The position numbers were made by a program, and so were the translations under genes. From Ignavibacteriae bacterium HGW-Ignavibacteriae-1 (GTDB lineage Bacteria; Bacteroidota; Ignavibacteria; Kapaibacteriales; UBA2268), in the NCBI GenBank assembly GCA_002839825.1, contig PGYU01000012.1:1-64000 (forward strand): a stretch of DNA of 64,000 nt. The letters are read 5' to 3'. The notes under the pieces are model-generated. The model saw nothing but the letters and a program-made list of their open reading frames with translations. It was not told the DNA's origin and ran no database searches. Positions 39,314 through 60,120 of the stretch are shown one piece after another (position 1 is the first letter of the stretch; each line of letters begins with the position of its first letter).

Positions 39314-39655
39314 TTTTATTCTTTTTGCCTACTCTTTTAGCTTTTCGGATTTCTCTCCTTTGAAATGTGTGGTCATTAAGTTTAGTTGGTAGTCGTCTCG
39401 TACTACCATTGTTTATAACAACTTTATACACGCAGCGAATCGTGTATTATTTTCTTAAGCAACGACGAGGGCAGGGGAGAGTTGCCTTTATCTCATAAAG
39501 TAGCCTTGTTTTTAAAACATTGTATCGTAGAGAAATATTTAAAAAACGCTACCAGAAAAAAAATAAAAATCATAGTTAAAACAAGAAACCTTCCGAAGGT
39601 TTCGAACATTCGGAAGGTTAGGAATTCAAGTCATAATAATCATAGTTCCGACAGG
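39314..39655. other. Intergenic stretch with hairpins and repeats
   Basis: The 342 bases contain a GGTAGT/ACTACC hairpin near 39390-39410, an ACACG/CGTGT hairpin near 39430-39450, a family 1 repeat at 39585-39619 and a degenerate family 2 right end (AATCATAGTTCCGAC) near 39640. I looked for transposase fragments and found no translated sequence that I recognise. Confidence 0.6.
39585..39619. repeat. Family 1 palindromic repeat, copy 1
   Basis: The repeat contains GAAACCTTCCGAAGGTTTC, itself a near-perfect palindrome, followed by a second half-copy GAACATTCGGAAGGTT. Matching copies are at 41961-41995 and 54668-54702. Copies 1 and 3 lie just downstream of T9SS genes and copy 2 lies upstream of one. 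Confidence 0.85.
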
Positions 39656-41812
39656 CTACATTTTCACAAACATCTGCGTCCTGTTACCAATACGAACATA
39701 ATACAGACCACGAGGCAAATGCGAAACATCAATTCTAAAATTGCCGCTCCCTGAGCCTGTCGAAGGGAGAGCGGTCGGGGCGGTCATCACACATTCACCC
39801 AAAGTATTGAAAATTTTGATTTCAGCACCTTCATCAACCCTACGGTTAACCGTAGGGTTGACATCTACGGCTATTTCAATATATTCCGTTGCCGGGTTGG
39901 GGAAGATTGCAAAAGTATTTAAAATTGGATTTCTAAGGTTTACAGAAGTTGTATTCAAATTTAATTCATACAGTCCATAAAAATAACCGGCAAAAATCGA
40001 ATTGCGGGATTTATTATATGTCAAAGACCAAATCGTTAAACCATTTTGCGGTGCAGGAAATGATTCATAAGAAGTATTGATTTTCGAATCACTTATAATA
40101 TACCAACTTGAATCAGCAGCCAAAATAACGTCATCCATCATGCTGCTTGATTCATTGTCTATCACAATCATCTTTTTGATTATGATTGGTAAAGTAATCT
40201 CGGAGACTGTCAAACCATTGTTATCGGATTTATAAATTGATGTATAATCGTTATTATGATAACCCACAAAAATATCACCTACACTATTCGTAACAATATC
40301 AAAAGGAGCTCTTTTGGGGAATGATGTTTCATCCCAAGTATGTGTAATTGCATTCTTGATAAAAACACCTTTGCTCGTCCCGGCTATCATTTGTTCATCA
40401 TGATTTTTTTTCAATATTCTAATATCATGATTGGAAATATTCGAATTTTCATTATTCCAAGTTGTGCCATCATCCGTACTAAAAAAAATACCTTTAACAT
40501 TGCTGCTAAGACCTGCTCCTGCAAAAATAGTATCTTGTTTTTCAGTATATGTATAAGGTCTAAAATTATAAATATTGTATAATTTCTCCCATGTTTTCCC
40601 ATAATCACTGCTTCTATAAAAATCGTCACTATAAATACTAATGAATAGTGAACCATTTTTAGTGTAATAAATTGACATTACATTACCTGCAATTGGAGTA
40701 GCAAATCTAATCGGTTTGCTTGAGACTTCTTCATCTTTAAGCTCATAAACCGAACCATCATAATTGCCAATAAATAACCTGTCGTTATAGTTAAATAACT
40801 GAGTAACAATCTTAGTTCCAACATTAGTATTTGGATATAGCCAATTTAGACCACCATCTTGACTAATGAATATTCCCGAAGCATAGTCACCAACATAAAG
40901 ATTTCCCTTATTATCAAAACTCAATGCATAAACTGTTCTACACGGAAAGTTATTGCTATAATTTACCCACTTATTATTTTCAATATCAAATTTTTGCAAA
41001 ACACTGCCGTATGTTCCGAGTACAACATCTCCACTAATTGGATCTTGAGCATAGCATTTTCCTTTTGGCTTATAATTTGATTCTAAACCATTCATTCTGC
41101 TTTCCCAAGTAATACCATTATCAGATGAAAAGTAAATTGCATTCCATGTTGAAACCCATAAGTTATCGCTATTATCTACAAAAATCACTCTTGCATTCTT
41201 ATCATATAAGGTTTCTTGCGTGAAATCAAAAAAGGACTCACCATTGTCTGTGGATTTCCATATTCCATTTTCATTTGGCAATATAAAAATATCACCATTT
41301 GAAGTTTTTGCGATATCAAAAATATATAAAAACCCTTCAACTAAATGCTCCCAAGTCTCGCCGCCATCCTTTGATAACAAAAAATCAGTACTACCAACTA
41401 CGATAAAATTACCATTATTGGCTTCAATCATCTTTTCTAAGGACTTGAATCCTTCGCCTTTCAGAACCCAAGTTTCACCTAAATCACTTGATTTATATAT
41501 CTTGCTTTCATCAATAATTGCCCAAATATTATTATTTCTGTCTTTTAGAAGGAATGAGCAAACTGTATTTTTTAAAAAGGCGTTGTCAATTTGATTCCAT
41601 GTCAAACCTCCATCTGTACTTTTTATTATTCCGGATTTCTTATTTGAGGTTTTTAACCAAGGATCAGTTCCTGCAAAGATTAAATTTTCATCATATGAAA
41701 GAATACTTTTTATCATCATACCATTTGGGTTTGTGTGGTATTTCCAATCTAATGAATAGCTATTTGCAACTGTCATTAACAAAAATAGTAACAACATCTT
41801 TTTCATAATCAC
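39656..41812 (-). CDS. Secreted BNR/Asp-box beta-propeller protein with T9SS sorting domain
   Basis: The 718-residue protein has a signal peptide (MKKMLLLFLLMTVANS). It contains many sialidase-type Asp-box repeats of the form S-x-D-x-G-x-T-W (STDGGLTWN, SSDLGETW, SKDGGETW, SSDNGITW, SSDYGKTW, STDDGTTWN), as in VPS10/Ycf48-like beta-propellers. The last 85 residues are a T9SS type A sorting domain (FPNPATEYIEIAV to MFVKM). That domain's DNA is almost identical to the sorting domains of the genes at 54757 and 57648 and contains an in-frame 28-bp palindrome (39834-39861) and a second hairpin (39744-39774). A binding or scaffold role at the cell surface is likely. No catalytic residues of sialidases are seen. 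Confidence 0.88.
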   Translation of the reverse strand: MIMKKMLLLFLLMTVANSYSLDWKYHTNPNGMMIKSILSYDENLIFAGTDPWLKTSNKKSGIIKSTDGGLTWNQIDNAFLKNTVCSFLLKDRNNNIWAIIDESKIYKSSDLGETWVLKGEGFKSLEKMIEANNGNFIVVGSTDFLLSKDGGETWEHLVEGFLYIFDIAKTSNGDIFILPNENGIWKSTDNGESFFDFTQETLYDKNARVIFVDNSDNLWVSTWNAIYFSSDNGITWESRMNGLESNYKPKGKCYAQDPISGDVVLGTYGSVLQKFDIENNKWVNYSNNFPCRTVYALSFDNKGNLYVGDYASGIFISQDGGLNWLYPNTNVGTKIVTQLFNYNDRLFIGNYDGSVYELKDEEVSSKPIRFATPIAGNVMSIYYTKNGSLFISIYSDDFYRSSDYGKTWEKLYNIYNFRPYTYTEKQDTIFAGAGLSSNVKGIFFSTDDGTTWNNENSNISNHDIRILKKNHDEQMIAGTSKGVFIKNAITHTWDETSFPKRAPFDIVTNSVGDIFVGYHNNDYTSIYKSDNNGLTVSEITLPIIIKKMIVIDNESSSMMDDVILAADSSWYIISDSKINTSYESFPAPQNGLTIWSLTYNKSRNSIFAGYFYGLYELNLNTTSVNLRNPILNTFAIFPNPATEYIEIAVDVNPTVNRRVDEGAEIKIFNTLGECVMTAPTALPSTGSGSGNFRIDVSHLPRGLYYVRIGNRTQMFVKM
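39744..39774. repeat. Hairpin inside a T9SS sorting domain (CCCTGAGCCTGTCGAAGGG type)
   Basis: CCGCTCCCT pairs with AGGGAGAGCGG (two-base bulge) around the core GAGCCTGTCGA. In the protein it encodes the linker ALPSTGSGSG between GECVMT and the RIDVSHLPRG motif. At the same position the two sister genes carry a different palindrome. Confidence 0.75.
39834..39861. repeat. 28-bp perfect palindrome translated in frame, copy 1
   Basis: TCAACCCTACGGTT followed by its exact inverted copy AACCGTAGGGTTGA forms a 28-bp perfect palindrome in coding DNA. On the minus strand it encodes the residues around NPTVNRRVDE, between the first and second strands of the T9SS sorting domain. One-mismatch copies are at 54919-54948 and 57813-57842. 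Confidence 0.9.
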
Positions 41813-41960: not shown

Positions 41961-41995
41961 GAAACCTTCCGAAGGTTTCGAACCTTCGGAAAGTT
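41961..41995. repeat. Family 1 palindromic repeat, copy 2
   Basis: GAAACCTTCCGAAGGTTTC is followed by GAACCTTCGGAAAGTT; it differs from copy 3 by one base. The preceding ACAAAGACGAGAC resembles the ACAAAGATTAGAC in front of copy 3, so the repeat unit extends to its left. Confidence 0.85.
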
Positions 41996-54474: not shown

Positions 54475-54576
54475 AGTATTGTCTGAAATATGATTTGTAG
54501 GATTTAAGTGATTAAGATGATTATACAAAAGAGAGTAAACATATTTCAGGAAAAGAAAAATAATGAAATTTTGTAG

Positions 54577-54597
54577 GGACAGAACAGCGTTCTGTCC
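54577..54597. repeat. Short palindrome (GGACAGAAC / GTTCTGTCC)
   Basis: Nine base pairs of perfect inverted repeat enclose AGC. It resembles in form the palindrome at 54608-54635 and lies 10 bases from it. Confidence 0.7.
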
Positions 54598-54607
54598 TTT
54601 TGTTTTT

Positions 54608-54635
54608 GTAGTGACACAGCGCGCTGTGTCACTAC
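54608..54635. repeat. 28-bp perfect palindrome between genes, same class as the in-frame palindromes
   Basis: GTAGTGACACAGCG is followed by its exact inverted copy CGCTGTGTCACTAC. It differs at only a few positions per half from the in-frame palindrome GTAGAGACACGGCA at 54839-54868 and 57734-57761, so the same element class occurs both inside and outside coding sequence. Confidence 0.85.
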
Positions 54636-54667
54636 TTGAGTCGTGTCAGGTGTAACAAAGATTAGAC

Positions 54668-54702
54668 GAAACCTTCCGAAGGTTTCGAACCTTCGGAAGG
54701 TT
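54668..54702. repeat. Family 1 palindromic repeat, copy 3
   Basis: GAAACCTTCCGAAGGTTTC is followed by GAACCTTCGGAAGGTT. After it comes AGTAATTCAAATCATAA, close to AGGAATTCAAGTCATAA after copy 1. The flanks of copies 1 and 3 are therefore homologous too. Confidence 0.88.
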
Positions 54703-54756: not shown

Positions 54757-57462
54757 TCACATCTTCACAAACATCTGCGTCCGGCTACCGATGCGAAGAT
54801 AATAAACGCCGCGAGGCAGATGCGAAATATCAATTCTTTGTAGAGACACGGCATGCCGTGTCTCTACAGTCATCACGCATTCGCCAAGCGTATTGAAAAT
54901 TTTGATTTCTGAACCTTCATCAACCCTACGATTAACCGTAGGGTTGATATCTACGGCTATTTCAATATATTCCGTTGCGGGGTTGGGGTGGATGGCTAAT
55001 TCTAAACGAATATCAGTTACATCAGTTGTGGGAGTAACAGTTAAATTTATATTTTCCGAATTGACCGTGCCGCAAATATTAGTAATTTCACAATAATAAA
55101 TACCGGCATCATTTAATTCAGCATTAGTTTTAATAATATTTTTTGAGTTGTATCCCGGCAATAAAACTGAATTTCTAAACCATTGATAATGAATAGTATC
55201 AAAAGAAACTGCTTCCACATTTAGTTCGAAGTTTTCACCTTCATTAATAATCAAGGAATTCGAACTTTGTGAAAGTATTTGCGGTTTTTCGTTAACTGCA
55301 ATGTAAGTTGATTCAGACCGGACTTTAATATTCTCCTTTAATGCTTCAATTTCTAAAAAATATTTACCAGAATTGATTATTTGTGTTTTCGAGATTTTCA
55401 ATTCAGCTTCATTAAGTTCAATATTTTCATTATTGGAAATTGGTTGCTCATTAAAGAACCAGCGAAATGATAGTGTATCGCAGTTTTTAGTTTGATAATC
55501 AACTTTTATTTCGGCAAAATCACTTTCGCAAATGTTAATATTTTTAGAACTATTAATTATGACAATTTCAGATATTTTGGAAATGGTAAACCGCTTAGAA
55601 ACGACTTTGCCGCAAAGCGATATTATTTCAACAAAAAAATAATCACCCTTTTCGCAAATATCTAAATTGCTTAGTCCTGTGATAACAAATTGTATTGAAT
55701 TTGTACCACTATATCTTGAATTATCTTTTAAAGCTGTTTTTTCGCCCACTTTGGCAGTATATTTAAACCACTGTATTGAATCTTTATAATCAGGAGGAAG
55801 TTTACCATTAGAATGAACTTTGACTTCAAATTCGTAATTTTCACCTATAATAGCATCGGTAATATCTTCAGATTGGTCAATTATTATAGGTACACTTACA
55901 GCATAAACAGGTATATAGTCAGACCAAACCACAGACTCTGCGGAAGTATATACCATACATTGATATATACCGGTAGAATTAGAATCAAATTTTGAAAACA
56001 CAAGCCTGGAGGAATTTTCAGCTTCCAATCTTGAAAAATCTTTGTACCATTGGTAATGTAGTTCTTGTCCGTAACTGGAGTTAGCATTACATTCAATATA
56101 ATTATTTTCAGTACCGGCACAATAGATTAATTCTTTGGTAAAATTCTCAATTTTTAATGTATCAACAATTTTATCTCGAATCCAAGTGAATTTTGTAGAT
56201 TCCAGACCGAAAAAGTTATGTACTGTAGAAATTGAAATCGAATCTATATAAGAAAGTGGTATCCCTGAAACGGTATATTGCATAAGAGGTTGTACTGTCG
56301 GTATTGGAGTATCACCGTTTGTATTAAACACTTGAAATAATCCGCTTTGAGGGTAACGAGAGAAATAAGTGCCATTAATAAATAAATTGAAGTGACTTAT
56401 ACCCGACTCAAGATCAGCATCTGCAGACCAATTAATAATAAAATTGTAATTCCCGGCTGATGAATCAATTTCAATTTTAAAAGGTGCAGGTGGTGGAGTA
56501 AAGTCCTTGACATATGTCAATATTAAAAATTCTTGGAATTTGGAGGCACAAATTGAATCGGGCATCCAAGATTTTGAAAGTGGATTTCCGTCAAAAGTTG
56601 ATGCTTTATAAATTTTTGGAGTACCTACTGTAATAGTATCAACTAACCACGCCCTGCTTTGATTCATATCTCTGAGTTGGGATGAACCTTCGGCTGGCAA
56701 ACGCTGAGAAAGAACAGCATCAAAAAAAGGTATAGTCATTAGTCTTAAAAAACTAAAACCATGATTTTGATTAGCGTTGTAGGCGATGCTTGCTAAACCG
56801 CCCATACTTCGTAATTTTGAAAATGCGATCAAGGAAGTACCCCAGCAATCAATCCCGGGAGCATTGAAATCATTAGCGCCGGCGTGACGTACCAATACCG
56901 GAATTTTTGCGGCTTCTGACGGATAATCGAAAGTCGGCAGTAAACCCGGTGAATAACTAACTGTAGCAATAACTCTTTCAGGGTATTCTTTCGTCATCGC
57001 CAGAACCCAATAACCGCCACCCGAATGCCCCCACAAAAGCCATGGTGAGGTGTTCAGTTCCGAATGTCCCGATTTTCGGGCAAGACTATCAAGAGCAGCT
57101 ATAAGAGCTGGTCCGGAACCATCCTCTGGATTAATCCAATCAAAACAATTACTTCCGGATTTTGGATACAAATCTGTTCCCAAAATAGCTAAACCCCACT
57201 TTTTAGCGAATGCTTGGTACTGAGCATCTTGAACCATAGGTTCGCCCCGGCCTTCTGCTCCGCATCCGTGTTGATGAATAAATACACCCTTTATAGTTTC
57301 TAATCCTTTGGGTATAAAAATTGTGTAGCGGGCTTTAGTAAGGAAATTACTCTCACCGCCTCCGGATAATTCCACAGCATAAGTATCGCCATTCCAATAT
57401 GATTCGGAGTGCAAGGGACTAATGATAGTAAATACTGAAAGTATTATTAATAGAAACTTTAT
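54757..57462 (-). CDS. Secreted alpha/beta-hydrolase with Ig-like domains and T9SS sorting domain; probable ATA start
   Basis: Residues about 20-270 form an alpha/beta-hydrolase (esterase/PHB-depolymerase-like) with oxyanion region HQHGCGAEGRG and nucleophile elbow GHSGGG (Ser in LLWGHSGGGYW). Ig-like modules follow (HYQWYKDFS, FRWFFNEQP, HYQWFRNSV). The end is a type A sorting domain (HPNPATEYIEIAV to MFVKM). The reading frame has no ATG, GTG or TTG before a TTG at 57414, which lies after the signal-peptide-like KFLLIILSVFTIISPLHS. An ATA at 57462 sits seven bases after AGGAG, so I place the start there (901 residues). The substrate is unknown. Confidence 0.8.
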   Translation of the reverse strand: MKFLLIILSVFTIISPLHSESYWNGDTYAVELSGGGESNFLTKARYTIFIPKGLETIKGVFIHQHGCGAEGRGEPMVQDAQYQAFAKKWGLAILGTDLYPKSGSNCFDWINPEDGSGPALIAALDSLARKSGHSELNTSPWLLWGHSGGGYWVLAMTKEYPERVIATVSYSPGLLPTFDYPSEAAKIPVLVRHAGANDFNAPGIDCWGTSLIAFSKLRSMGGLASIAYNANQNHGFSFLRLMTIPFFDAVLSQRLPAEGSSQLRDMNQSRAWLVDTITVGTPKIYKASTFDGNPLSKSWMPDSICASKFQEFLILTYVKDFTPPPAPFKIEIDSSAGNYNFIINWSADADLESGISHFNLFINGTYFSRYPQSGLFQVFNTNGDTPIPTVQPLMQYTVSGIPLSYIDSISISTVHNFFGLESTKFTWIRDKIVDTLKIENFTKELIYCAGTENNYIECNANSSYGQELHYQWYKDFSRLEAENSSRLVFSKFDSNSTGIYQCMVYTSAESVVWSDYIPVYAVSVPIIIDQSEDITDAIIGENYEFEVKVHSNGKLPPDYKDSIQWFKYTAKVGEKTALKDNSRYSGTNSIQFVITGLSNLDICEKGDYFFVEIISLCGKVVSKRFTISKISEIVIINSSKNINICESDFAEIKVDYQTKNCDTLSFRWFFNEQPISNNENIELNEAELKISKTQIINSGKYFLEIEALKENIKVRSESTYIAVNEKPQILSQSSNSLIINEGENFELNVEAVSFDTIHYQWFRNSVLLPGYNSKNIIKTNAELNDAGIYYCEITNICGTVNSENINLTVTPTTDVTDIRLELAIHPNPATEYIEIAVDINPTVNRRVDEGSEIKIFNTLGECVMTVETRHAVSLQRIDISHLPRGVYYLRIGSRTQMFVKM
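54839..54868. repeat. 30-bp perfect palindrome translated in frame, copy 1
   Basis: TGTAGAGACACGGCA and its exact inverted copy TGCCGTGTCTCTACA join to a 30-bp palindrome inside the sorting domain. On the minus strand it encodes VETRHAVSLQ, between GECVMT and RIDISHLPRG. A 28-bp copy is at 57734-57761, and a related palindrome lies between genes at 54608-54635. Confidence 0.92.
54919..54948. repeat. In-frame palindrome encoding NPTVNRR, copy 2
   Basis: ATCAACCCTACGATT and AACCGTAGGGTTGAT are inverted copies with one mismatch. It occupies the same codons as the perfect palindrome at 39834-39861. Confidence 0.88.
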
Positions 57463-57647
57463 AGCTCTTCTCCTAAATATCTAGTACAAAAAACCCTAGG
57501 TTCCTTAGCTCGCTAATTCGCTTTTGGGCTTTTATGTAGAAGAAATACTTACATTCATGTCCAAAATACAAATTTTCATTATAAAATAGTTTCGATACAA
57601 CACAAAATCATATACTAATATTTCAATATTGCAAACTTACTAAATTC

Positions 57648-60029
57648 TCATTTCACAACCACAAATTTTTGCGAATAATTTCCTATTCTTACAAAATAAA
57701 CCCCAATCGGCAGATGCGAGATATCAATTCTTGGTAGAGACACGGCATGCCGTGTCTCTACAGTCATCACACATTCGCCAAGTGTGTTGAAAATTTTGAT
57801 GTCAGAACCTTCATCAACCCCACGGTTAACCGTAGGGTTGATATCTACGGCTATTTCAATATATTCGCTTGCCGGATTGGGGAATATAAATAAGTCTTGT
57901 CCTCCGGACAGTATCGGCTCACTTGTATTTTCAACCGAACTGACGACTTTCTTCTTTGTTCGCCATAAGCCCGTATAATTCATTGCGTAAAGCCTCCCGT
58001 CATTACCGAGTCGCAATGCTGTAATTACTGATGGCTCTAACAAACCCTTGCTCATATTGTGAAAAGACTTCAGCGAATCTGTGGAGCGGTATATACCACT
58101 TTGGGTAGGCATATAGAAGTATCCGGTTGTGTTATCTGTTAGGATTACGTCTTGATCACTATTAATTTTGTTAGTGAATATGTTAGTCATAAATTTAAGT
58201 GGTGACTTGTTCGAATTCTGATATAAATATTTAGTCCAAGTTCTCCCATGATCCCGAGTTAATAACAAAAATCCATGCCCATAGTAAAAAACAAAACCAA
58301 CGCCTGTGTGATAATTATATACTGTATATAAATAATGTTTATATTCTACATTTTTAAAAGCTGATTCTGAAGATTCGTTGTGAATTAAATTCCAAGACTT
58401 TCCATAATCCTTAGATAAGTAAACTTTTGCTGAGTCTGCAAAGAAAATGAATTCATCATACTTATTAAATCGGAAACTTCCCTTAGTTATGGGTTCATTA
58501 TTTGTAGGTAAATAGGCGTTTTCCAATATTTCCCAGGTCTCACCACAATCTTTTGACTGTAAATAGTAATATTGGCGAGTCTTTCCATCTACTTGAACAT
58601 ACCCTCTCCCTAAATATCGGTTTTGATCATGTTCATCCCAATTATAATCCATAAACGAGATTGTTATGGAATCATTCGATTTAATCTGATAAAATGAATA
58701 AAATGGATATTCAGTAGTAAGTAAAGATGTTTTATATGTATCAACTATGTATTTATCATTTGGTAAAATTCTCATTTGGTCACTTAAATTATCCGGTTGA
58801 AAATCTTCCCACATATAACTAACATCAATCCATTTAATATTATTATAATAACGCGAAGCAGTTAAAATTTCGGATTTTGAGTTGACCTGAAAGTAGAATG
58901 CACCCTTATAATTGTATAAGCCTGAATGCTTTTTAGTCCAAAGAGTGTCATTTAAAGATAATTTTTCGATATTGCCACTAAAACAAGCATAAATATTATC
59001 TTTACTGTCCACAGCAATATCCATTATCGTACTATATATAAACGAATAAGGAATATCCTCCCATGTTTTCATTGCATCTCGGGAACGACGGAGATTAGCT
59101 CTGTTATTCTCAGGGCTTTTGGTTGAAGAATAAAATTCTGCTTCATTTAATTTGAATAAACGATAAGTTTTCGCATTATAACCTTCAATCTCGGTTACTT
59201 CATAAGTCTTATTATCAATATCAATTACCATGTAGCCATTGCTCATAGTTATATAAAGTTTTTTTTGTGAATATGTTGGGTAAATCGAATAATAATTTGG
59301 TTGGCTTTTCCCGGGATCAAAATAAATATCACCCTCAGAATTAGAATTAAGTGTATCCCAAGAATTCCCATAATCTGTTGAACGTACTATTAAGATATTA
59401 TCGCGAGGATTATCACTTTCAAAAAACAAAAAAAATGTTGATTCATCATAAAGTGAAGTCAAAAAATTAGTACCGTCTGCAATTTCATATTTAATGATAT
59501 TTGTATCGTTTTTGGGATAATGTATGAAAAATACATTGTTATAACCCTTTTTTATAGATTTCGATTCATAACACCAAAGGTCGAACCTTTTATCAACAAA
59601 TAGCACTCTTCTTTGAATACTTCTTCCGGGAATTTTTGAATATCTTGAAAAATGGGTCACCTCCCAACTTGAGCCATAATCATATGAAATGAGGTTATAA
59701 CCATCAGATTCCAAATCTGTGGTGTTGGGAAAAATATTATATGTATTGCCCTGAATAAAAAAATAATTATTCTGAATATTCAATGTGCTCCCGTAGTAAA
59801 GAATTGAATCAGGCATATTTAGCCTTGACCAATTTTCACCTTTATCTATTGATTTGAAAATGCCTGTTTTTGCAGCCGCATATAGTTCATCTTGTTCATT
59901 TACTTCAATCCTTACGTTGTCATCATTAAAGTATTCAATGTTCACTTTCTCCCATTCAGGGAAATCGTCTTGGGCGACAAGCCGCATTTGTACTATTAAA
60001 AGTATAAAAAATAGTATGTAAATTTTCAT
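57648..60029 (-). CDS. Secreted BNR/Asp-box propeller protein with T9SS sorting domain
   Basis: The 793-residue protein has a signal peptide (MKIYILFFILLIVQMRLVAQ). Many Asp-box-like repeats are visible (SIDKGENWSRL, SYDYGSSWEV, STDYGNSWDT, SKDCGETWEI, SKDYGKSWNL, TRDHGRTWTK), as in VPS10-type propellers. The last 85 residues are a T9SS type A sorting domain (FPNPASEYIEIAV to KFVVVK). Its DNA closely matches the sorting domains of the genes at 39656 and 54757 and contains two in-frame palindromes (57734-57761 and 57813-57842). I prefer the ATG at 60029, which has GGTGA six bases before it, over the ATG at 60035. A surface binding role is likely. Confidence 0.86.
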   Translation of the reverse strand: MKIYILFFILLIVQMRLVAQDDFPEWEKVNIEYFNDDNVRIEVNEQDELYAAAKTGIFKSIDKGENWSRLNMPDSILYYGSTLNIQNNYFFIQGNTYNIFPNTTDLESDGYNLISYDYGSSWEVTHFSRYSKIPGRSIQRRVLFVDKRFDLWCYESKSIKKGYNNVFFIHYPKNDTNIIKYEIADGTNFLTSLYDESTFFLFFESDNPRDNILIVRSTDYGNSWDTLNSNSEGDIYFDPGKSQPNYYSIYPTYSQKKLYITMSNGYMVIDIDNKTYEVTEIEGYNAKTYRLFKLNEAEFYSSTKSPENNRANLRRSRDAMKTWEDIPYSFIYSTIMDIAVDSKDNIYACFSGNIEKLSLNDTLWTKKHSGLYNYKGAFYFQVNSKSEILTASRYYNNIKWIDVSYMWEDFQPDNLSDQMRILPNDKYIVDTYKTSLLTTEYPFYSFYQIKSNDSITISFMDYNWDEHDQNRYLGRGYVQVDGKTRQYYYLQSKDCGETWEILENAYLPTNNEPITKGSFRFNKYDEFIFFADSAKVYLSKDYGKSWNLIHNESSESAFKNVEYKHYLYTVYNYHTGVGFVFYYGHGFLLLTRDHGRTWTKYLYQNSNKSPLKFMTNIFTNKINSDQDVILTDNTTGYFYMPTQSGIYRSTDSLKSFHNMSKGLLEPSVITALRLGNDGRLYAMNYTGLWRTKKKVVSSVENTSEPILSGGQDLFIFPNPASEYIEIAVDINPTVNRGVDEGSDIKIFNTLGECVMTVETRHAVSLPRIDISHLPIGVYFVRIGNYSQKFVVVK
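57734..57761. repeat. In-frame palindrome encoding VETRHAVSL, copy 2
   Basis: GTAGAGACACGGCA and TGCCGTGTCTCTAC are exact inverted copies (28 bp), at the same codons as the palindrome at 54839-54868. Confidence 0.92.
57813..57842. repeat. In-frame palindrome encoding NPTVNRG, copy 3
   Basis: ATCAACCCCACGGTT and AACCGTAGGGTTGAT are inverted copies with one mismatch, at the same codons as the palindromes at 39834-39861 and 54919-54948. Confidence 0.88.
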
Positions 60030-60120
60030 TTTCATTCACCAAAAATTCCAAACAACAAACCCTATATATCCTATGACACATCAACACGAAATTTATCTCA
60101 GGAAATGTTTGAAAATATCT

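Follow-up and report, generated by a model that had tools for sequence, protein, structure and literature searches.

The DNA analysed here, called the window in the following, is a 64,000-nucleotide stretch of the Ignavibacteriae bacterium HGW-Ignavibacteriae-1 genome (G000). Two of its ORFs end in a T9SS type A sorting domain, both above the curated cut-offs of TIGR04183 and PF18962, and a third T9SS tail is found elsewhere in the window (Table 1). For tails 1 and 2, the original prediction had described exact palindromes of 30 and 28 bp within the sorting domains, read in frame as VETRHAVSL, and a close relative between genes. All of these features were recovered at the expected positions, with the peptide seen at the C-terminal end of both ORFs, and no match is expected by chance in 100 dinucleotide-preserving shuffles. 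What had been missed is a second in-frame palindrome in both tails, the third tail, and three intergenic 33-bp palindromes which are identical or nearly identical to palindromes translated in further tails of this genome. In the following, the 28-bp palindrome is named E, and the other families are named A, B, C, D, F, and G. The spacer 3′ of the tail 1 gene (54573-54702) holds at least three different palindromic repeats clustered in 130 bases. The GTAG palindrome GTAGGGACAGAACAGCGTTCTGTCC, truncated in this spacer, has an intact form in the sister genome G001 (C1:59295), where it lies outside tails.

Table 1. Positions of the T9SS tails, their genes, and the palindromes within the window.
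Feature	Position	Strand	Remarks
ORF with tail 1, esterase-like/Ig-like protein	54757..57414	-	start codon uncertain
T9SS type A sorting domain, tail 1	54766..54993	-	TIGR04183 38.5 bits, PF18962 46.9 bits
E palindrome TGTAGAGACACGGCATGCCGTGTCTCTACA, exact, 30 bp	54839..54868	-	loop 2, tail 1; read T-VETRHAVSL-Q
A palindrome (ATCAACCCTACGGTTAACCGTAGGGTTGAT-like), one G-U-type mismatch	54919..54948	-	loop 1, tail 1; read INPTVNRRVD
ORF with tail 2, BNR/sortilin-like repeat protein	57648..60035	-	ends in tail 2
T9SS type A sorting domain, tail 2	57657..57887	-	TIGR04183 33 bits, PF18962 43.8 bits
E palindrome GTAGAGACACGGCATGCCGTGTCTCTAC, exact, 28 bp	57734..57761	-	loop 2, tail 2; read VETRHAVSL-P
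A palindrome (ATCAACCCTACGGTTAACCGTAGGGTTGAT-like), one G-U-type mismatch	57813..57842	-	loop 1, tail 2; read INPTVNRGVD
Third T9SS tail	39665..39907	-	loop 1 = A, loop 2 = CCTTCGACAGGCTCAGG-type repeat (PSTGSGSG)
A palindrome	39833..39862	-	loop 1, third tail
GTAG palindrome GTAGGGACAGAACAGCGTTCTGTCC, truncated	54573..54597	none	intergenic
E-family palindrome GTAGTGACACAGCGCGCTGTGTCACTAC	54608..54635	none	intergenic
B palindrome, 33 bp, 15-3-15	54670..54702	+	intergenic; identical to copies translated KPSEGFEPSEGS in other tails
B palindrome, one mismatch	39587..39619	+	intergenic; adjoins third tail gene
B palindrome, one mismatch	41963..41995	+	intergenic

Modelled with AlphaFold2, tail 1 (100 residues modelled, mean pLDDT 77) is predicted to form a seven-strand beta domain, for which the best PDB fold matches are the T9SS C-terminal domains of mirolase (8qb1), NucA (8glk), and PorZ (5m11), at modest E-values of approximately 0.003-0.01. 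In this model, A occupies residues 38-47, in a loop of low confidence that connects strands 31-36 and 51-55. VETRHAVSL covers residues 65-73, where strand 61-66 ends and loop 67-73 leads to strand 74-77. In T9SS bacteria that have been cultured and studied, the C-terminal domain is usually removed after export, and on this general ground the tail loops may be especially tolerant of foreign residues.

Across the 3.23 Mb genome, the search for E, split into coding and non-coding hits, returned approximately 18 places. Eleven of them lie in T9SS tails, all in the same loop and reading frame, and seven lie outside tails, six being intergenic on inspection and one remaining uninspected. The genome contains at least 150 T9SS tails, and strong palindromes were found in 28 of the 150 that were scored, always in the same two loops; altogether, approximately 30 genes with palindromic tails are involved. 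Loop 1, which lies before the strand IKIFNTLGECV, is occupied by A (ATCAACCCTACGGTTAACCGTAGGGTTGAT, INPTVNRRVD), B (AACCTTCCGAAGGTTTCGAACCTTCGGAAGGTT, read KPSEGFEPSEGS), C (AAACTTCGGAAGTTTTGGAAACTTCCGAAGTTT), or D (AACAAGGGGTTGCAACCCCTTGTT), and loop 2 by E, F (AGATGTCCAACATCTTGGAGATGTTGGACATCT, read ADVQHLGDVGHL), or G (ATTCATCCGATGACTCCAAGTCATCGGATGAAT, read IHPMTPSHRMN), the elements of both loops occurring in many combinations. An imperfect hairpin repeat of the CCTTCGACAGGCTCAGG type (PSTGSGSG) is frequent in loop 2, and another translated hairpin repeat, SFLQRQESSSKLSFLRMQES, was seen in loop 1 of a tail in genome G021 (L213). For 30 tail genes the body could be assessed; these bodies form 14 clusters, between which no similarity was detectable.

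All elements are single insertions of 8-12 residues, 24-33 bp in length, and two architectures can be told apart. E begins with GTAG, which pairs with CTAC at its other end, and none of the other families carries the GTAG tag; B, C, F, and G consist of two inverted 15-bp hairpins with a 3-bp spacer (15-3-15). The families also differ in where they are found. All 15 copies of the 30-bp A lie in coding tails, as do all nine copies of the 33-bp F in one genome, and a genome search allowing up to three mismatches returned no intergenic copy of either. The 33-bp B/C elements occupy approximately 34 places, about 12 of them in tails and the remainder largely intergenic. B and F, which have an asymmetric centre, stand in one orientation in every tail. 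Coding copies in the window genome were found in T9SS tails only.

The copied unit is the DNA of the element, and not merely the protein it encodes. When genes of the genome are compared in pairs, DNA identity is 92-100% for the palindromes and 71-81% for the surrounding tail DNA. At positions with the same amino acid, the codons are identical in 92-100% of cases inside the palindromes versus 54-65% in the flanks of the same tails, and it is this near-invariance of codons, absent from the flanks, which indicates that DNA rather than protein was copied. Most palindromes are perfect, and decayed copies with unmatched changes are also present. Variants of E with changes matched on both arms were found in G000 (CACGGCATGCCGTG), G001 (CAATTCATGAATTG), and G021 (CACAGCATGCTGTG). 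Selection at the RNA level was sought by comparing G-U with other mismatches; some mismatches retain a G-U pair in the sense strand, but G-U was not clearly favoured, and the comparison was not decisive. That most palindromes are perfect despite the decayed copies could reflect selection on the hairpin.

Two further genomes of the same genus show the same arrangement of palindromes in their tails, and orthologues whose bodies are 90-96% identical carry different palindromes in the same loop. This is exemplified by G002 L278 (A + G) and G000 L155 (B + G), and by G002 L204 (B + E) and G000 L052 (B + G), the bodies being 96% identical in both pairs, as well as by G000 L178 (D + F) and G002 L292 (A + PSTGSGSG repeat) with bodies of 94% identity. 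In 18 of the 25 pairs, both tail cores were nearer to a different tail from the same genome than to the orthologue, which suggests gene conversion among tails; this inference rests on approximately 123 bases of core per comparison and on the closest match out of some tens of paralogues. Copying is also favoured over many independent insertions by the single orientation of B and F in tails, and a scenario in which every tail copy is an independent insertion was rejected in view of this orientation together with the homogenised appearance of the tail cores. Since coding copies in the window genome are confined to the tails, copying among paralogous T9SS tails has probably contributed.

Outside the genus, exact E (all 28 bases) was found in Chloroflexota (many copies, mostly outside obvious genes), Neomarinimicrobiota, Bacteroidia, and a Leptospiraceae assembly, and within the genus in G001, a genome with a wealth of T9SS tails. 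Three Neomarinimicrobiota proteins, whose bodies differ, have exact E in frame in their T9SS tail, there in loop 1; in further genera of the family to which the window belongs, E-like palindromes likewise occupy loop 1, a Bacteroidia T9SS tail carries the variant VETRHATSL in loop 2, and a methyltransferase-like ORF from Dehalococcoidia (L234) contains E in another frame (RDTACRVST). A 39-base pattern comprising E and tail flank matched none of the named genomes, whereas the bare E did. Because E or E-like palindromes are present in tails of other phyla and genera, there mostly in the other loop, capture took place repeatedly. The idea of a copied palindromic element that tolerates translation, as originally proposed, is supported by the coding and intergenic copies, the single frame within tails, the other frames in non-tail genes, and the differing elements at the same loop of orthologues from sister genomes. 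The outcome that would have refuted it, a palindrome restricted to these genes and conserved as ordinary protein, did not materialise.

A link to transposases emerged through the RAYT model NF047646 and the matches L343, L355, and L013; PF01797 transposase matches in relatives mostly had no strong palindrome nearby, and in G001 a Y1 gene was found by NF047646 and none by PF01797. The curated cut-off of NF047646 is 80 bits. L356 and L357 exceed it, and most RAYTs score somewhat below (L358 65-73, L221 69, the window genome's own RAYT 64.5, and L361 56.5 bits); in these the HxH motif is retained, and the alignment mostly spans the greater part of the model. RAYT genes of the window's family carry or adjoin E, B, F-like, and G palindromes. 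At the G021 RAYT L361, G lies inside the gene, 31 bases before the open frame, and 15 bases after the stop; the inner copy is read NSSDDSKSSDEY, in a frame different from that of the tails' IHPMTPSHRMN. Seven F-like elements surround the G011 RAYT L363, and a B element lies upstream of the G012 RAYT L365, with one 15-bp B unit near L345. Exact E was found within, and not flanking, the RAYT genes L358 (G001) and L221 (Neomarinimicrobiota), in both cases in frame and directly following MPNHIHG. In G001, another RAYT (L366) contains a GTAG palindrome in a frame different from that of the tails, and several further RAYTs have other hairpin repeats in the loop after the HxH motif. No RAYT linked to A or D was found.

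The window genome has a single RAYT (L013/L359, G000:C31:26091-26480), which is not of the E type. It is flanked by six perfect 15-mers AGACTTC[CG]GAAGTCT, four on one side and two on the other, which differ from the C unit by one paired change. With its six 15-bp hairpins, this gene represents a complete REPtron. In the RAYT tree, two fully supported clades were obtained, one with the MPTHFH motif and 15-3-15 double hairpins, the other with MPNHxH and GTAG-type or other single palindromes, so that the two clades match the two element architectures. Nearly every MPNHxH-type RAYT of the family has a translated hairpin repeat after the HxH motif (L366, L371, L374, L369, L364, L360, and L373; e.g., VGANGRSPL and RAGLEPAPT).

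Several explanations have to be weighed against these data. If the peptides were simply conserved parts of a duplicated T9SS tail family, with DNA that is palindromic by chance, it would be expected that palindromic tails form a recognisable subfamily with common residues around the loops, which they do, and all tail copies of E in the window genome indeed share one frame and loop. However, the codon test rules out a conserved protein peptide, the same loop holds unrelated perfect palindromes, and other frames are used elsewhere; together with the intergenic and cross-phylum copies of the same DNA, the codon test refutes ordinary protein homology as a full explanation, and we give it almost no credence. 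Frozen synonymous sites equally weigh against selection of the loop peptide, for instance as a patch recognised by the T9SS machinery, with different palindromes providing different specificities. Most tails have unrelated loops, and frames vary in other genes; the two fixed loops and the swapping between orthologues would suit such a role, which we nevertheless regard as very improbable. The observation that palindromy is common to the insertions while the peptide is not would rather point to hairpins that are retained because they act in mRNA or DNA, for example in translation pausing near the end of the secreted protein, stability of the 3′ end, or termination, and the paired changes on both arms as well as the mismatches retaining a sense-strand G-U pair are in line with it. 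Yet only approximately 30 of 150 tails have a palindrome, decayed copies show ordinary mismatches without a clear preference for G-U, and the same elements occur in RAYT genes and between genes, so that paired variants may stem from copying of whole elements. We therefore consider hairpin function an improbable main cause; that the hairpin acts in mRNA nevertheless remains possible, and any role at the RNA or protein level is unproven.

Gene conversion might also have acted alone, with an ancient capture followed by copying between tails, perhaps stimulated by breaks at hairpins, and without a continuing part for RAYTs. The confinement of the window genome's coding copies to tails, the single orientation of B and F, the tail cores that look homogenised within genomes, and the lack of an E-type RAYT in the window genome all speak for this possibility. 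It does not readily accommodate the captures that occurred independently in other genera and phyla and involve the other loop, nor the RAYT genes that carry or are flanked by elements in the family and in the sister genome G001, and on balance we find it unlikely but well worth keeping in mind. The explanation we favour, with reasonable but not full confidence, is a capture of REP/REPIN-type elements, belonging to two RAYT groups, by the tail loops, followed by their spread and exchange through recombination. The elements would be of the short REP/REPIN type, i.e., GTAG...CTAC palindromes (E) and 33-bp 15-3-15 double hairpins (B, C, F, and G), with the two groups of RAYTs (REP-associated tyrosine, Y1/HUH) as the likely transposases; movement by RAYTs is inferred. 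Copies landing in coding DNA presumably survive if they are in frame and in an exposed loop, and the T9SS sorting domain, a beta-sandwich with two such loops, may have been filled since it is permissive. With moderate confidence we infer that captured elements spread and replace each other across approximately 30 paralogous tails mainly via gene conversion, and this proposed exchange among the tails of one genome would explain why orthologues in sister species hold different elements. The scheme works without any assumed advantage to the host, and for families A and D it rests on analogy alone. Against the REP-type explanation, it has to be noted that no mobility was observed, that the sole RAYT of the window genome is not of the E type and E lies inside rather than beside its RAYTs, that no RAYT was found for A and D, and that A and F lack intergenic copies at up to three mismatches. 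A more speculative extension, which we consider rather doubtful, is that tail loops serve as permanent docking sites for REP-type cassettes, which are exchanged by RAYT activity or hairpin-triggered recombination, and that T9SS tails are a refuge in which elements outlast their own RAYT.

Comparison with known systems places the elements closest to REPs and REPINs. Di Nocera et al. (2013, PMC3733652) described GTAG-tagged REPs and RAYTs (REPtrons), where multicopy, RAYT-linked palindromes of 20-40 bp starting with GTAG are intergenic and sometimes in frame within genes; Chloroflexi are among the hosts, and the host genes stressed are those of DNA repair and replication, not T9SS tails. E is likewise short, multicopy, intergenic as well as in frame, and RAYT-associated, and it has GTAG, but paired with CTAC at the other end and thus as a tag at both ends, which leaves its place among the GTAG-tagged REPs undecided. 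The coding copies of the elements described here are concentrated in two loops of a single domain family, and in the cases found E lies within RAYT genes and not at their flanks. REPINs consist of two REPs in inverted arrangement and are mobilised by RAYTs (PMC3116915, PMC8049555). Similarly, B, C, F, and G are made up of two inverted 15-bp hairpins, 3 bp apart, and occur around RAYT genes, but many of their copies are translated. In Pseudomonas REPINs, units and spacer are much longer than in the 15-3-15 elements. Of the features that define REPs, E, A, B/C, and F show the short length (20-40 bp), the multiple copies, and a palindrome that can fold into a stem-loop. Association with RAYTs is also given, with flanking copies for G (L361), B (L365), F-like (L363), and C-like elements (L013/L359), and only inside the gene for E. 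A predominantly extragenic location is not, with tail copies accounting for 15/15 of A, 9/9 of F, 11/18 of E, and approximately 12/34 of B/C; A and F are therefore not full members and are better termed REP-type elements, proposed to work like a REP. Transposition of these palindromes by a RAYT is inferred, without binding, cleavage, or mobility data.

The original prediction had likened the palindromes to the Rickettsia palindromic elements, which are approximately 150 bp long and occur in many unrelated genes, in frame within coding DNA as well as between genes (PMC10969869). This likeness holds for the in-frame insertion of palindromic repeats into protein-coding genes and for the intergenic copies, but not for the closest kinship, where REP/REPIN and RAYT fit better: the elements here measure 24-33 bp, and the coding copies of the window genome are limited to T9SS tails. 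PARCEL elements, tandem 25-residue repeats, are likewise palindromic DNA that encodes parts of membrane or exported proteins and is shuffled within genomes (PMC2996958), whereas single elements in two fixed loops without tandem 25-residue arrays were found in this case. Paper searches, which left subscription literature outside, returned nothing relevant on T9SS tails with palindromic repeats, in keeping with the earlier statement that no description was known. In-frame REPs and Rickettsia elements are already known, and it is the apparent capture in T9SS tails, as read from the genomes, for which we found no description.

The combination of the same loops, unrelated elements, and orthologues with different inserts amounts to a natural repeated experiment on the entry of selfish DNA into proteins, which includes RAYT genes with related elements in their own coding sequence, and it suggests that selfish DNA has repeatedly reshaped a protein-sorting domain. 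In addition, candidate RAYT groups can now be paired with candidate REP families in a group for which no such pairing was found described. The insertions reveal sites of the T9SS sorting domain that tolerate insertion, which is useful for tagging, and they are a warning that a recurring motif in these proteins, VETRHAVSL for example, can be a translated DNA repeat and not a functional protein motif.

Besides complete tail genes, fragments of approximately 50-108 residues with little or no body, often with palindromes, were observed in G001 and G002 (L302, L303, L305, L311, L277, and L295) and in G021 (L212, L215, and L216). These body-poor fragments represent detached or decayed tails.
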